A stretch of DNA of 45,994 nucleotides from positions 1 to 45,994 of the forward strand of contig JACWDQ010000009.1 of assembly GCA_014654035.1 (NCBI GenBank), written 5' to 3'. The notes under the pieces are model-generated. The model was not told the DNA's origin. It did no database searches and saw only the letters and a program-made list of their open reading frames with translations. The stretch's first letter is position 1, and the number at the start of each line of letters is the position of its first letter. Origin of the DNA: Pelagibacterales bacterium SAG-MED19. Lineage in GTDB: Bacteria > Pseudomonadota > Alphaproteobacteria > Pelagibacterales > Pelagibacteraceae. Positions 2,844 through 23,260 of the stretch are shown here, in pieces. The position numbers and the translations under genes are program-made.

Positions 2844-3845
2844 TTAATAATCTTTTACTAATTTTACCAAATAGTCCATCATATTTGGATCTGTTTCTGG
2901 GAGAACACCATGTCCTAAATTAAAAATATAAGGATGATCTTTAAATATATCCAAATATTTTTCCGCCTCTTTTTTAAGATTTTTCTTGTCTGTTAGTAAA
3001 ACTTTAGGATCCATACCACCCTGAACTGGTATTTTTATTTCCTTTAAAATCTGTTTTGGATTTACTTCATAATCTATACAAATAACATCTGGTTTAACTA
3101 TTTTACAATATTCACTATAATTCTTTATTCCTCTAGGAAAACAAATTACAGGCACATTTAAAGATTTTGTAAATTCCACTAAATTTAAGGTAGGTATATA
3201 AATATAGTTTGGTAGATCTCTTTCATTTAATAATCCAGCCCAACTATCAAAAATTTGTATTATTTCAGCTCCATTGTCTACTTGATTTTTAATATGTAAC
3301 TTTAAAAATTTTTCTAGAATTATCAAAATTCTATTTAATAAAAAATTATCTTTATAAAAATCCTTTTTTAAAGATTTTTTAGGAGACTGTCTATTTATCA
3401 TGTAAACTAACAGTGTCCATGGAGCCCCCACAAATCCTATTGTATTTTTACCATTTGTGAGATTATTTTTACTCACTGAATTTATTGCTTTATAAACTGG
3501 ATATATTTTTTTTACGAAATCAACTTCATCTATTTTTAAAATTTGATCTAAATTTAATTCTCCTAATATTGGTCCAAAATTTTTTTTAAATTCAACATGT
3601 TGATTTAATCCATAAGGAACCATTAATATGTCTGAAAAAATTATTGCTGCATCTAAATCAAATCTTTTAAGAGGCTGGAGTGTTATTTCAGATGATAAAC
3701 TCTCATTTAAACATAATTTAATAAAATCAGTATTTAATTTTCTAATTTCTCTGAATTCAGGAAGATATCTACCTGCTTGTCTCATTATCCATATTGGATT
3801 ATTTTTAGTTTGATGGTTAATTATTGTTTGTTCTATTAGAGTCAT
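2844..3845 (-). CDS. hemE: Uroporphyrinogen decarboxylase
   Basis: Decarboxylates the four acetate side chains of uroporphyrinogen III to give coproporphyrinogen III. The family signature PIWIMRQAGRYLPEFR begins at residue 17 and carries the substrate-binding Arg residues. The catalytic Asp region is AIIFSDILMVPYGL, and the second signature is GFVGAPWTLLVYM. The C-terminal GHGVLPETDP block is also present. Length 333 is normal. It is the first gene of the leftward heme operon and faces ppsR across the 282-base gap, the arrangement known at several alphaproteobacterial origins. Confidence 0.98.
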   Translation of the reverse strand: MTLIEQTIINHQTKNNPIWIMRQAGRYLPEFREIRKLNTDFIKLCLNESLSSEITLQPLKRFDLDAAIIFSDILMVPYGLNQHVEFKKNFGPILGELNLDQILKIDEVDFVKKIYPVYKAINSVSKNNLTNGKNTIGFVGAPWTLLVYMINRQSPKKSLKKDFYKDNFLLNRILIILEKFLKLHIKNQVDNGAEIIQIFDSWAGLLNERDLPNYIYIPTLNLVEFTKSLNVPVICFPRGIKNYSEYCKIVKPDVICIDYEVNPKQILKEIKIPVQGGMDPKVLLTDKKNLKKEAEKYLDIFKDHPYIFNLGHGVLPETDPNMMDYLVKLVKDY

Positions 3846-4127
3846 ATAAATAATTAAATATAATTGATTGTATTATTAGTATAGTTTGTGAATAACGAAG
3901 ATTAAATTTTGTAAACATTTTATAAACAATTTATTAACATTTAGAGCTTTAAATTTCTTAAATATATATGAAAAATTGTAGCTTTTTAGTAAAATCATGA
4001 AATGATAGAGAAATTTTATACAGATGTTTAATAATGTTAATAAAACTCTAGTTTTACAACATTAATTTTAAAATGTTAAAATATTCAAATATGATTTAAA
4101 TAATAAAAAGTTACTAACATTTAATAC
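3846..4127. other. oriC: Probable chromosomal replication origin (oriC)
   Basis: Largest gene-free stretch in the window and extremely AT-rich. It separates divergent hemE and ppsR, the location established for oriC in Caulobacter and Rickettsia (hemE next to the RP001/DUF299 gene). A full match to the DnaA box TTATNCACA lies on the minus strand at 3887-3895. Tandem near-boxes TTATAAACA (3920-3928) and TTATTAACA (3931-3939) differ at one base each, as does TTATACAGA at 4016-4024. TTAACATT recurs in both orientations. Flanking genes point outward, as expected for replication-oriented genes. Context is strong; the boxes alone would not be convincing in such AT-rich DNA. Confidence 0.72.
3934..4121. 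repeat. Dispersed TTAACATT motif copies inside the origin-like region
   Basis: TTAACATT occurs at 3934-3941, and its reverse complement AATGTTAA at 4033-4040 and 4072-4079. A one-base-shorter TAACATT is at 4115-4121, and a related ACAACATT at 4056-4063. The motif resembles a degenerate DnaA-box core or a lineage-specific initiator site. Low sequence complexity makes some recurrence expected by chance. Confidence 0.4.
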
Positions 4128-4952
4128 ATGAGCAATTTTTTTCAAATTTATCTAATTTCTGACTCAACAGGCGAAACATTAGATAGAATCTTTACTGCTA
4201 TAAAAGCTCAATTTAAAAATATAGACTATAAAATACACACATATTCTTTCACAAGAACAGAAAACCAAATATTTAAAATATTATCAGAGGCTGAAAAAAA
4301 TTCTAATTCGATCATATTATACTCAATAGTTGATAGTAATCTTGCAAAGTTTTTAGCAAACACCAGTGAAGATAAAAAAATTCCTTGCTTTGGAGTTTTA
4401 GGAGATTTAATTTTAAGTTTTTCAAAACTTCTAAATCAAAAAGCATCACATCAACCAAGTGGTCAATACGCTTTAAATGATGAATATTACAAAAGAATAG
4501 CCGCAATACAATTTACCATGAACCATGACGATGGAAATCTTGTAAAAGAACTTAACAAGTCAGATATAATCTTGCTAGGCGTAAGCAGAACCAGCAAAAC
4601 ACCAACCGCAATTTATTTGGCAAACAAAGGCTTTAAAACATCAAACATTCCATTAATTAATGCAAGTTCAATACCTAAAGCTTTAAAAGACAACCCTCAA
4701 ATGGCTTGCGTTGTAGGCCTTAATACAGAGGCAGAAAGACTTGTGGATATCAGAAAAAATAGAATGAATTCATTAAAAGAAACAGAAAACAAATCTTATA
4801 CTAATTTAGAAAATATAAAAAAAGAAGTTAATCACGCAAGAGAAACATTTAAAAAATACAAATGGCCTACAATAGATGTCACAAGAAAATCCGTTGAAGA
4901 AACTGCCGCATCAATAATTAAAATTTACGAAATTTACAAACAGAATGGTTGA
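4128..4952 (+). CDS. ppsR: Pyruvate phosphate dikinase / PEP synthetase regulatory protein (DUF299)
   Basis: Bifunctional Ser/Thr kinase and Pi-dependent phosphorylase that switches pyruvate phosphate dikinase or PEP synthetase off and on. The N-terminus has ISDSTGETLDR, and the kinase P-loop-like block is LLGVSRTSKTPTAIYLAN near residue 150, both diagnostic. The C-terminal block includes WPTIDVTRKSVEETAASI. Length 274 is normal. This is the RP001-type neighbour of oriC. No clear Shine-Dalgarno is visible upstream. Its end overlaps maf by 8 bases. The target dikinase is not in this window. Confidence 0.95.
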   Translation: MSNFFQIYLISDSTGETLDRIFTAIKAQFKNIDYKIHTYSFTRTENQIFKILSEAEKNSNSIILYSIVDSNLAKFLANTSEDKKIPCFGVLGDLILSFSKLLNQKASHQPSGQYALNDEYYKRIAAIQFTMNHDDGNLVKELNKSDIILLGVSRTSKTPTAIYLANKGFKTSNIPLINASSIPKALKDNPQMACVVGLNTEAERLVDIRKNRMNSLKETENKSYTNLENIKKEVNHARETFKKYKWPTIDVTRKSVEETAASIIKIYEIYKQNG

Positions 4953-5530
4953 AATAATTCTTGCATCTAAAAGTAAGGTAAGAAAAGAAATACTTGATAA
5001 AAACAATATCATTTCTTATGTGGAACCTTCTAATGTAGATGAGGAAATTATTAAAAAAAGTTTATTAAAAGAAAAAGCATTACCAGAAGTTATTTCAAAG
5101 AATTTAGCAGAATTAAAAGCAAATAAAGTAAGTCAAAAAAAAAACTGATTTTTTGGTTTTAGGAGCAGACAGCGTTATAGACCTTAATGGAGAGCTAATA
5201 TCAAAACCTGAGACGCGAGAAGAAGCTATAGAAATTTTAAAAAAACTTAATGGAAAAAAACACAATTTAATTAGTTCAGTTTGTATTTCAAAAAATGGCT
5301 CAATGATTTGGAATTATACCGATAAAGCAGAATTAACAATGAAAAACATGGATAATAAAGATCTTGAAACTTATCTATCAAAAATTTCTGATGAAGCATT
5401 ATATGCTTATAATGTGTATCAAATAGAGGGGGAGGGTAAAAATTTATTTTCTCAGATAAAGGGCGATGAAAATACAATTATGGGTTTACCAATTATGAAA
5501 ATAAAAGAATATCTAAAAAATTATAAATGA
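4945..5530 (+). CDS. maf: Maf-family nucleotide pyrophosphatase, frameshifted
   Basis: House-cleaning pyrophosphatase of the Maf/YhdE/YceF group, acting on noncanonical or free NTPs. The first frame (4945-5148) has the substrate loop ILASKSKVRKEIL. It stops just after an A10 run at 5135-5144. Removing one A joins it to VLGADSVIDLNGELISKP, the catalytic Asp block, and then YNVYQIEGEG and the C-terminal GLPI, giving 194 residues, the normal length. As written, the protein is split into 67- and 125-residue pieces with the active site divided. It sits between ppsR (8-base overlap) and aroE (ATGA overlap), as in other alphaproteobacteria. Sequencing error or poly(A) slippage is likelier than gene loss. 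Confidence 0.92.
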
Positions 5531-6360: not shown

Positions 6361-6925
6361 AATTGGAATTTTAGGAGACATAGGATCTGGTAAGAGTTAC
6401 GTAGCAAAGAAATTTGGACATCCAGTATTTGATGCTGATTTTGAAGTTAGTAAATTATATAAAAAAGATAAAAAAGTTTTTAAAAAGTTAAAAAAAATTT
6501 TACCAAACTATTTTAGTTCTTTCCCAATAAAAAAATATGAAATTTCTGATGCAATATTAAGTAATAAAAAAAATTTAAAAAGAATTATTCAAATAGTTCA
6601 CTTAGAAGTTAGAAAAAAATTGATTTCTTTTTTAAAAAAAAATAAAAATAAAAAGTTCATTATTTTAGATATTCCCCTTTTATTAGAAAACAAAATAAAT
6701 AATAAAAAAGATATTTTAATATTTATTAAGTCTAAGAAATCCGAAGTTACTAAAAGACTGAAAAAAAGGAAAAATTTTAATAAAGAATTAATCAAGAAAT
6801 TTAGAAATATTCAATTATCTCTTGATTACAAAAAGAAAAAATCACAATATGTTATTAAAAATGATTTTACTCAAAAAACAATATCAAAATATGTTAAAAA
6901 TATTTTAAACAGAATTGAAAAATGA
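6353..6925 (+). CDS. coaE: Dephospho-CoA kinase
   Basis: Phosphorylates dephospho-CoA, the last step of CoA synthesis. I chose ATG at 6353 because IRIGILGDIGSGKSYVAKKF then sits at the N-terminus with the P-loop at residues 8-15. An in-frame ATG at 6305 only adds a tail buried in aroE. The following DADFEVSKLY block matches the family's HxDAD region, and IILDIPLLLEN is the conserved lid-side block. At 190 residues it is slightly short but complete. It is very Lys-rich with long A-runs that nevertheless keep frame. Overlaps aroE by 8 bases and dnaQ by 4. Confidence 0.93.
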   Translation: MIRIGILGDIGSGKSYVAKKFGHPVFDADFEVSKLYKKDKKVFKKLKKILPNYFSSFPIKKYEISDAILSNKKNLKRIIQIVHLEVRKKLISFLKKNKNKKFIILDIPLLLENKINNKKDILIFIKSKKSEVTKRLKKRKNFNKELIKKFRNIQLSLDYKKKKSQYVIKNDFTQKTISKYVKNILNRIEK

Positions 6926-23185: not shown

Positions 23186-23260
23186 GCGGGCATAGCTCAG
23201 TGGTAGAGCGTCTCGTTGCCAACGAGAAGGTCGAGGGTTCGACCCCCTTTGCCCGCTCCA
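23186..23260 (+). tRNA. tRNA-Gly (anticodon GCC)
   Basis: Complete cloverleaf, 75 bases with encoded CCA. The acceptor stem GCGGGCA pairs with TGCCCGC. The D arm is GCTCAGTGGTAGAGC. The anticodon stem TCTCG/CGAGA encloses the loop TTGCCAA with GCC. The T arm is GAGGGTTCGACCCC. The discriminator is T, followed by CCA at 23258-23260. Stands between the TPR-sulfotransferase gene and phhB. Confidence 0.97.

Follow-up and report, generated by a model that had tools for sequence, protein, structure and literature searches.

The 282-bp gene-free gap at positions 3846-4127, between the divergent genes hemE and ppsR, is very probably the chromosomal replication origin (oriC) of this SAR11 bacterium. 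The window, by which we mean the whole stretch of DNA that was analysed, comprises 45,994 nucleotides from Pelagibacterales bacterium SAG-MED19 and is contig C50 in an assembly of 50 contigs and 1.01 Mb, from a genome that is 84% complete. The reading of the gap as oriC, drawn from sequence comparison, rests on its conserved place, its near-constant length, its clustered and partly phased box-like 9-mers, its nearness to parS and its persistence after the loss of a flanking gene. It had been put forward in the initial annotation, and the comparison with relatives upholds it: parS lies near the gap in all 18 genomes in which both could be placed, the gap outlives either of its flanking genes, and the boxes are conserved.

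The hemE-ppsR gap and its surroundings

The gap is the largest in the window, the next ones measuring 133, 126 and 91 bp. It is bordered at its left edge by hemE (URO-D; 2844-3845, minus strand; PF01208, E-value 1.6e-82) and at its right edge by ppsR (Kinase-PPPase, also DUF299 or COG1806, the RP001-type gene; 4128-4952, plus strand; PF03618, E-value 2.4e-87). Downstream follow maf, aroE, coaE, a DnaQ-type exonuclease gene and secB (PF02556), an order that the initial annotation had given correctly, as it had the size rank of the gap, its divergent flanks and its AT-richness. In the window, maf (4945-5530) is split over two frames at an A run near 5135-5144; because 79 of the 80 named relatives have maf intact in one frame of 170 aa or more, this split is likely a sequencing or assembly slip.

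With 15.2% GC against 27.9% for the window (84.8% versus 72.1% AT), the gap is very AT-rich, the comparison being with the window and not with the whole genome. This property is not unique to the gap: 117 overlapping 282-bp frames elsewhere in the window match or exceed its AT content, so that low GC alone is not special, and since coding stretches near 6447 are equally AT-rich, it makes a weak argument for an origin. A search with Rfam at gathering scores revealed no RNA gene in the gap, the sole match in the window being a tRNA at 23186-23257. By nearest-neighbour calculation, the duplex has below-average stability in the gap (-1.044 versus -1.170 kcal/mol per step). Duplex stability was nevertheless rejected as a locator of an unwinding element, as eight of the 12 least stable 50-bp stretches listed outrank the best one that touches the gap; within the gap, the same calculation did not single out the spacer at 3940-4034.

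Relatives were found with the ppsR of the window, yielding 80 named loci, 79 of them titled Pelagibacteraceae or Pelagibacterales and one a Flavobacteriaceae MAG. The contig with the latter title (L076) carries a SAR11-like hemE-ppsR locus and is probably mis-binned. Motifs were counted in a set of 141 distinct gaps, consisting of that of the window and those of relatives from genera g1 and g33-g36, with identical gaps merged. Left out of this set were L003 (the window itself), L004 (apparently the same contig stretch as L042), L149 and L150 (hemE not adjacent) and L160-L162 (other families), while L054, with an incomplete hemE match, was left out of the alignment, the shuffle counts and the intergenic comparison. 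Rows in which the hemE match begins inside the protein (L079, L103, L117, L120, L128, L135 and L152-L155) were kept with an extrapolated hemE start. Shuffles preserved dinucleotides and were run on the same 141 gaps for 100 rounds; GANTC, AAGCTT and TTAA-N7-TTAA were counted over both strands, and each palindrome counts twice.

Box slots in the window and in its relatives

The exact canonical box that the initial annotation had placed at 3887-3895 on the minus strand, TTATTCACA, is present, and so are its near-boxes at 3920 (TTATAAACA), 3931 (TTATTAACA) and 4016 (TTATACAGA). It had missed a copy of TTATTAACA at 4035 on the minus strand and two degenerate slots, at 3909 (TTGTAAACA) and 4111 (TTACTAACA), which were seen in the alignment. 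The slots that recur there are 3887 (minus), 3909, 3920 and 3931 (plus, 11 bp apart), 4035 (minus) and 4111 (plus); two less pronounced slots are found near 3983 (14 of 141 gaps) and at 4016 (18 of 141).

The slot of the putative canonical DnaA box at 3887-3895 reads TTATTCACA in 55 of the 141 gaps, TTATTAACA in seven and TTATCAACA in five. The phased array opens with the degenerate slot TTGTAAACA (3909-3917, plus), a one-mismatch tandem match at whose column TTATN[AC]ACA occurs in 21 of 141 gaps, and continues with two putative variant boxes, TTATAAACA at 3920-3928 (plus; TTATAAACA in 32 and TTATTAACA in 10 of 141) and TTATTAACA at 3931-3939 (plus; TTATTAACA in 64 of 141). A further putative variant box, TTATTAACA at 4035-4043 (minus), is the highest-information 9-mer of the gap, its slot holding TTATTAACA in 77, TTATCAACA in nine and TTATTCACA in nine of the 141 gaps. 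The degenerate slot TTACTAACA at 4111-4119 (plus) is occupied by TTATTAACA in 46, TTATACACA in 16 and TTATAAACA in 11 of 141. Finally, the degenerate slot TTATACAGA at 4016-4024 (plus) is weakly conserved; the whole 9-mer is TTATACACA in three and TTATACAGA in 14 of 141 gaps, and the column-wise majority over the 79 named relatives and the window is TTATACACA. The palindrome AAGCTT is also common in the gaps (170 both-strand counts in 81 of 141 gaps, with 14.8 in shuffles); it adjoins the slot near 3983 in the consensus of the relatives, where the window, near 3979, has TAGCTT instead.

The remark in the initial annotation that consensus DnaA boxes are very few holds for TTATNCACA, but the origin is not poor in boxes, since TTATNAACA is found in most slots. 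Indeed, TTATNAACA is the main motif, with 348 matches in 139 of the 141 gaps against a shuffle mean of 23.5, and the canonical TTATNCACA is a minority, with 100 matches in 80 gaps against a shuffle mean of 5.4 and one exact match in the window; as related genomes are counted separately, these counts are not independent events. In the 79 named gaps TTATNCACA occurs 63 times and TTATNAACA 202 times; the 390 other intergenic stretches at these loci contain zero and five, respectively. The gaps of a genus hold between zero and six TTATN[AC]ACA sites each. Boxes are sparser in g32 and f2: the g32 gaps have three copies of TTATNAACA each, and four of the six f2 gaps contain at least one TTATN[AC]ACA, with none inside L271 and L272.

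Within slots, C and A are exchanged at box position 6 across relatives, such that TTATNCACA and TTATNAACA alternate: slot 3887 has C in 77% and A in 21%, and slot 4035 has A in 89% and C in 10%. When eight slots are pooled, the steadiest positions are 7 (A, 93%) and 4 (T, 92%), followed by 1 and 2 (T, 86% and 85%), 8 (C, 81%), 9 (A, 80%) and 3 (A, 78%). The five main slots carry 1.41 bits of information against 0.95 outside, a value reached by none of 10,000 random placements; this test is descriptive, because the slots were picked on the same alignment. Conservation of the boxes in close relatives had been proposed as a check on the origin reading, and the boxes proved to be kept across the aligned hemE-ppsR gaps. 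Most of them have A in place of C at position 6 (TTATNAACA), and we read these as DnaA boxes altered by drift along with the AT-rich genome.

The concentration of these motifs in the gap was also examined within genomes. Taken across the entire window, sites with at most one mismatch to TTATNCACA show no enrichment (63 observed versus 75.6 expected). Four of the 11 TTATN[AC]ACA sites of the window lie inside the gap, and any other 282-bp stretch of the window holds at most one. In 388, 346 and 356 kb sampled from genomes G012, G200 and G082, respectively, stretches of this length outside the gap hold at most two, and the gaps of G082 and G012 (L143) hold four and three. The exact 11-bp tandem pair has four matches in 40 genomes, all four in the gap, one of them being positions 3920-3939 of the window. 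If one mismatch is allowed, the total rises to 44; the gap accounts for 22 of these, spread over 18 of the 40 genomes, and the pair is absent from 14 of the 40. At this setting it is not enriched genome-wide (44 versus 57 for the reversed control); half of the tandem matches fall in the gap, which is ~0.02% of the genome, despite this chance-level overall frequency.

The HTH motif RDHTT of DnaA is conserved in all nine proteins read, two g32 loci being unread; the HTH ends in FSNRDHTT in the eight g1 proteins and in FSGRDHTT in the g33 one. A conserved DnaA motif would predict canonical boxes. The exchange within slots, together with identical putative boxes reported from Mycoplasma (PMC2751442), suggests that SAR11 DnaA may tolerate A at position 6.

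CtrA, GANTC methylation and IHF

CtrA was not detected, as none of 63 genomes scored over the cut-off of NF045991, a model named for the Rhodobacter-type CtrA; one of 14 controls scored over it. That Pelagibacter has no ctrA ortholog has already been reported (PMC2877005). The window contains no CtrA site of the form TTAA-N7-TTAA, and this motif is not clearly enriched in the 141 gaps (112, with a shuffle mean of 78.9 and a maximum of 120). For the stricter form TTAA-N7-TTAAC, the 23 counts, spread over 22 gaps, surpass those of any shuffle (mean 8.8, maximum 17), which may reflect the occurrence of TTAAC within TTATTAACA. Genome G012 encodes four Trans_reg_C proteins. One scores over the NCBIfam cut-off and looks PhoB-like, and another carries a degenerate receiver. 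The others, for which no model was over its cut-off, we take to be ChvI-like and OmpR-like. In G012, G200 and G204 (L265, L266 and L267), a Trans_reg_C regulator with a degenerate receiver is encoded at ~18-28 kb from the origin.

A methylase of the PF01555 family, which we take to include CcrM, was over the cut-off in all 10 single-contig genomes and was not found in the window genome, at 84% completeness. A CcrM homolog (PMC3973325) and methylation of GANTC sites (PMC9516812) have been described for SAR11. GANTC is scarce in the gaps, with four counts in two of the 141 against 34.5 in shuffles. At the named loci its density is 0.09 per kb in the gap, 0.67 in other intergenic DNA and 2.90 overall. 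This depletion may in part be compositional, since CTNAG, used as a control motif, likewise drops from 1.01 per kb in other intergenic DNA to 0.45 in the gap. Two of the hemE-ppsR gaps of other alphaproteobacterial families (L160-L162) contain GANTC and the third has none. PMC9516812 reports an ori-to-ter gradient of GANTC methylation in Pelagibacter and an enrichment of GANTC in its intergenic DNA, which the loci studied here do not show. The IHF site WATCAN5WTR is absent from the window and is not enriched in the 141 gaps (54 versus 50.6 in shuffles); WATCA-N4-WTR, a mis-spaced IHF form (33 versus 49.4), was left out of account.

These data bear on an alternative that accepts the region as oriC but assigns TTATNAACA to another protein, leaving DnaA with only the few TTATNCACA boxes. 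We consider this unlikely. It would accommodate the dominance of TTATNAACA though RDHTT, which would predict canonical boxes, is unchanged, and it could draw on the presence of TTAAC in TTATTAACA and on the CtrA-like TTAA-N7-TTAAC exceeding the shuffle maximum (23 versus 17). However, C and A replace each other at position 6 of individual slots from one relative to the next, an exact TTATNCACA is available in only 80 of the 141 gaps, and CtrA itself was detected in none of the 63 genomes. Furthermore, TTATTAACA has been proposed as a putative DnaA box in Mycoplasma hominis, M. mobile and M. arthritidis (PMC2751442).

Conservation of the gap and loss of its flanking genes

The length of the gap ranges from 255 to 286 bp (median 281) in the 141 distinct gaps, 138 of which are within 267-286 bp. 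The other intergenic stretches of at least 30 bp at the 79 named loci (n = 390) have a median of 64 bp, and four of them measure at least 250 bp. Mean pairwise identity of the gap among the 79 named relatives and the window is 75%; hence, length is held more tightly than sequence.

The hemE and COG1806 flanks are present in the window and in the measured gaps of g1 and g33-g36, and not in g32 or f2. In a survey of 147 genomes of the order, matches to ppsR (PF03618) were confined to f1, the family of the window, and none was found in the 16 genomes listed for the sister family f2 (e.g. G121-G136). In f2, all six loci examined have the order hemE, a gap of 271-281 bp, and maf. In genus g32, where hemE lies elsewhere, the order at both loci is ppsR, a gap of 353 bp, and a gene that we presume to be rho-like from the start of its protein. 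Since the gap is kept without ppsR or without an adjacent hemE, it is not just the promoter of either gene. It is accordingly very improbable that the gap serves chiefly as divergent promoter and leader DNA for hemE and ppsR with no role in replication: start codons do diverge at both of its edges, and the promoters of both genes may well be inside, but the gap survives either change of neighbour (six of six and two of two loci), DnaA-like boxes cluster in it and are nearly absent from the 390 other intergenic stretches, and parS is near it in 18 of 18 genomes.

parS, dnaA and GC skew

A parS site (zero to one mismatch) was found 7.4-19.5 kb from the gap in each of the 18 genomes in which both were placed, and parS is usually close to the origin, according to a review (PMC4468827). 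This sample includes the 10 single-contig genomes and eight more, six of the latter from f2. Genome G283, which has parS and no gap coordinate, is outside the count, and the window genome is uncounted because its parS is on another contig, C14. The reversed pattern, employed as a control, had no match in nine genomes at up to one mismatch, and had matches, which are unlocated, in three of 11 genomes at up to two mismatches. The dnaA gene is 60.7-72.7 kb from the gap in all 10 single-contig genomes, whose chromosomes measure 1.2-1.5 Mb. In g1, parS is on the hemE side. In g32 and g33 (G200, G203 and G204), parS is found on the ppsR side, as is dnaA, a switch consistent with a local inversion across the origin. 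The 300 bp upstream of dnaA contain no TTATN[AC]ACA at any of the 10 readable loci (L001, L223-L229, L231 and L232; one was unreadable), and there is therefore no sign of DnaA autoregulation by such boxes.

GC skew, another check proposed in the initial annotation, was sampled in three genomes and gave a divided answer: G012 has a trough around the gap and is thus compatible with it, the minimum of G200 is 20-25 kb off, and in G082 several minima compete. The sampled cumulative skew of G012 is lowest in a stretch 86 kb to the hemE side, the next stretch, 21 kb from the gap, being little higher, and reaches its maximum 606 kb from the gap, half the chromosome being 672 kb. The dense profile of the same genome displays a jagged trough from ~1,227 to 1,312 kb with several near-equal minima: -1262 some 30 kb to the hemE side, -1196 at the gap itself (1,262 kb) and -1260 at 25-30 kb to the ppsR side. 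The dnaA gene, at 1,199 kb (-523), is outside this trough. For G200, the displaced minimum is that of the dense profile, and the maximum of the sampled profile is not opposite. Since the skew at third positions tracks gene strand for the most part, GC skew was rejected as proof of oriC, and we take it as modest support. The use of dif as a terminus marker was dropped, since PMC2731167 reports P. ubique to be without a dif/Xer system.

That the origin would lie next to dnaA, as in many bacteria, with the hemE-ppsR gap as a relic, is highly improbable: PMC2031905, whose data set includes P. ubique, put oriC at dnaA if within 7% of the skew switch, and dnaA is close enough to the gap (61-73 kb, 10 of 10 genomes) to confuse coarse skew, but the 10 readable loci have no box upstream of dnaA, parS is nearer to the gap than dnaA, and the cumulative skew of G012 is far less negative at dnaA (-523) than in the trough that surrounds the gap (-1262 at its deepest).

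Putative initiation at the gap and its implications

Returning to the gap as oriC, we infer that DnaA may bind and initiate replication there. DnaA-ATP would nucleate on the best boxes (3887 and 4035, both minus) and would then fill the 11-bp phased direct array at 3909, 3920 and 3931, whereupon adjacent AT-rich DNA might melt to permit helicase loading. The AT-rich spacer from the phased array to the 4035 box (3940-4034) is a candidate unwinding region, proposed from its position relative to the boxes alone. As CtrA was not detected, control of the origin probably rests on DnaA. With a changed box code and no CtrA detected, it is a variant of the hemE/COG1806 origin and not a new kind of system.

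A broader proposal is that the DnaA code has shifted family-wide in SAR11 from TTATNCACA to TTATNAACA, and that CtrA control and almost every GANTC site have been lost from the origin while a CcrM-type methylase was kept; we regard this as evenly poised. If it is true, SAR11 would possess a naturally minimal alphaproteobacterial origin of ~280 bp, driven by DnaA with neither CtrA input nor methylation of the origin DNA, and such an origin, in some of Earth's most abundant cells, would be underrated by origin finders that rely on consensus boxes. The missing CtrA also offers a clean case for studying the timing of an alphaproteobacterial origin without that regulator, and the slot map supplies seven defined sites in the window for footprinting.

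In the surface ocean, SAR11 ranks with the most abundant groups, and estimating growth from read depth requires the position of the origin. GRiD places dnaA-bearing fragments at the origin (PMC7852909), which in SAR11 would be 61-73 kb off on a chromosome of 1.2-1.5 Mb. The oriC of HTCC1062 is described as manually identified (PMC4033161); a published SAR11 oriC sequence was not found among the matches listed, a search with subscription journals mostly outside its scope.

Comparison with known origins

The origins of Caulobacter and Rickettsia are flanked by hemE and COG1806 (PMC1914354), as the initial annotation had stated, and the window has the same flanks. Like Cori of Caulobacter crescentus, the SAR11 site is located between hemE and COG1806 (ppsR) and has DnaA sites of mixed quality, and parS, which is within 8 kb of Cori (PMC4468827), is within ~10 kb in most g1 genomes. 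The two differ in length (404 bp for Cori, PMC1914354, versus 282 bp in the window) and in their boxes, Cori employing G-boxes (TGATCCACA) and W-boxes (PMC4285127) and SAR11 mostly TTATNAACA. They also differ in that Cori, which CtrA represses, has five CtrA sites, whereas the window has none. The origin of Rickettsia prowazekii resembles the gap in its hemE/COG1806 flanks and in being very AT-rich (384 bp, 82.6% AT; PMC1914354). Several Rickettsia origins have reported CtrA sites, according to the same source (PMC1914354). In contrast, the window is without such a site, and CtrA was not detected.

Mycoplasma hominis, M. mobile and M. arthritidis have AT-rich, reduced genomes too. They share with SAR11 the very same 9-mer, TTATTAACA, as a putative DnaA box (PMC2751442). 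However, they belong to an unrelated phylum and carry their boxes upstream of dnaA in one or two copies, whereas those of SAR11 occupy several slots far from dnaA.
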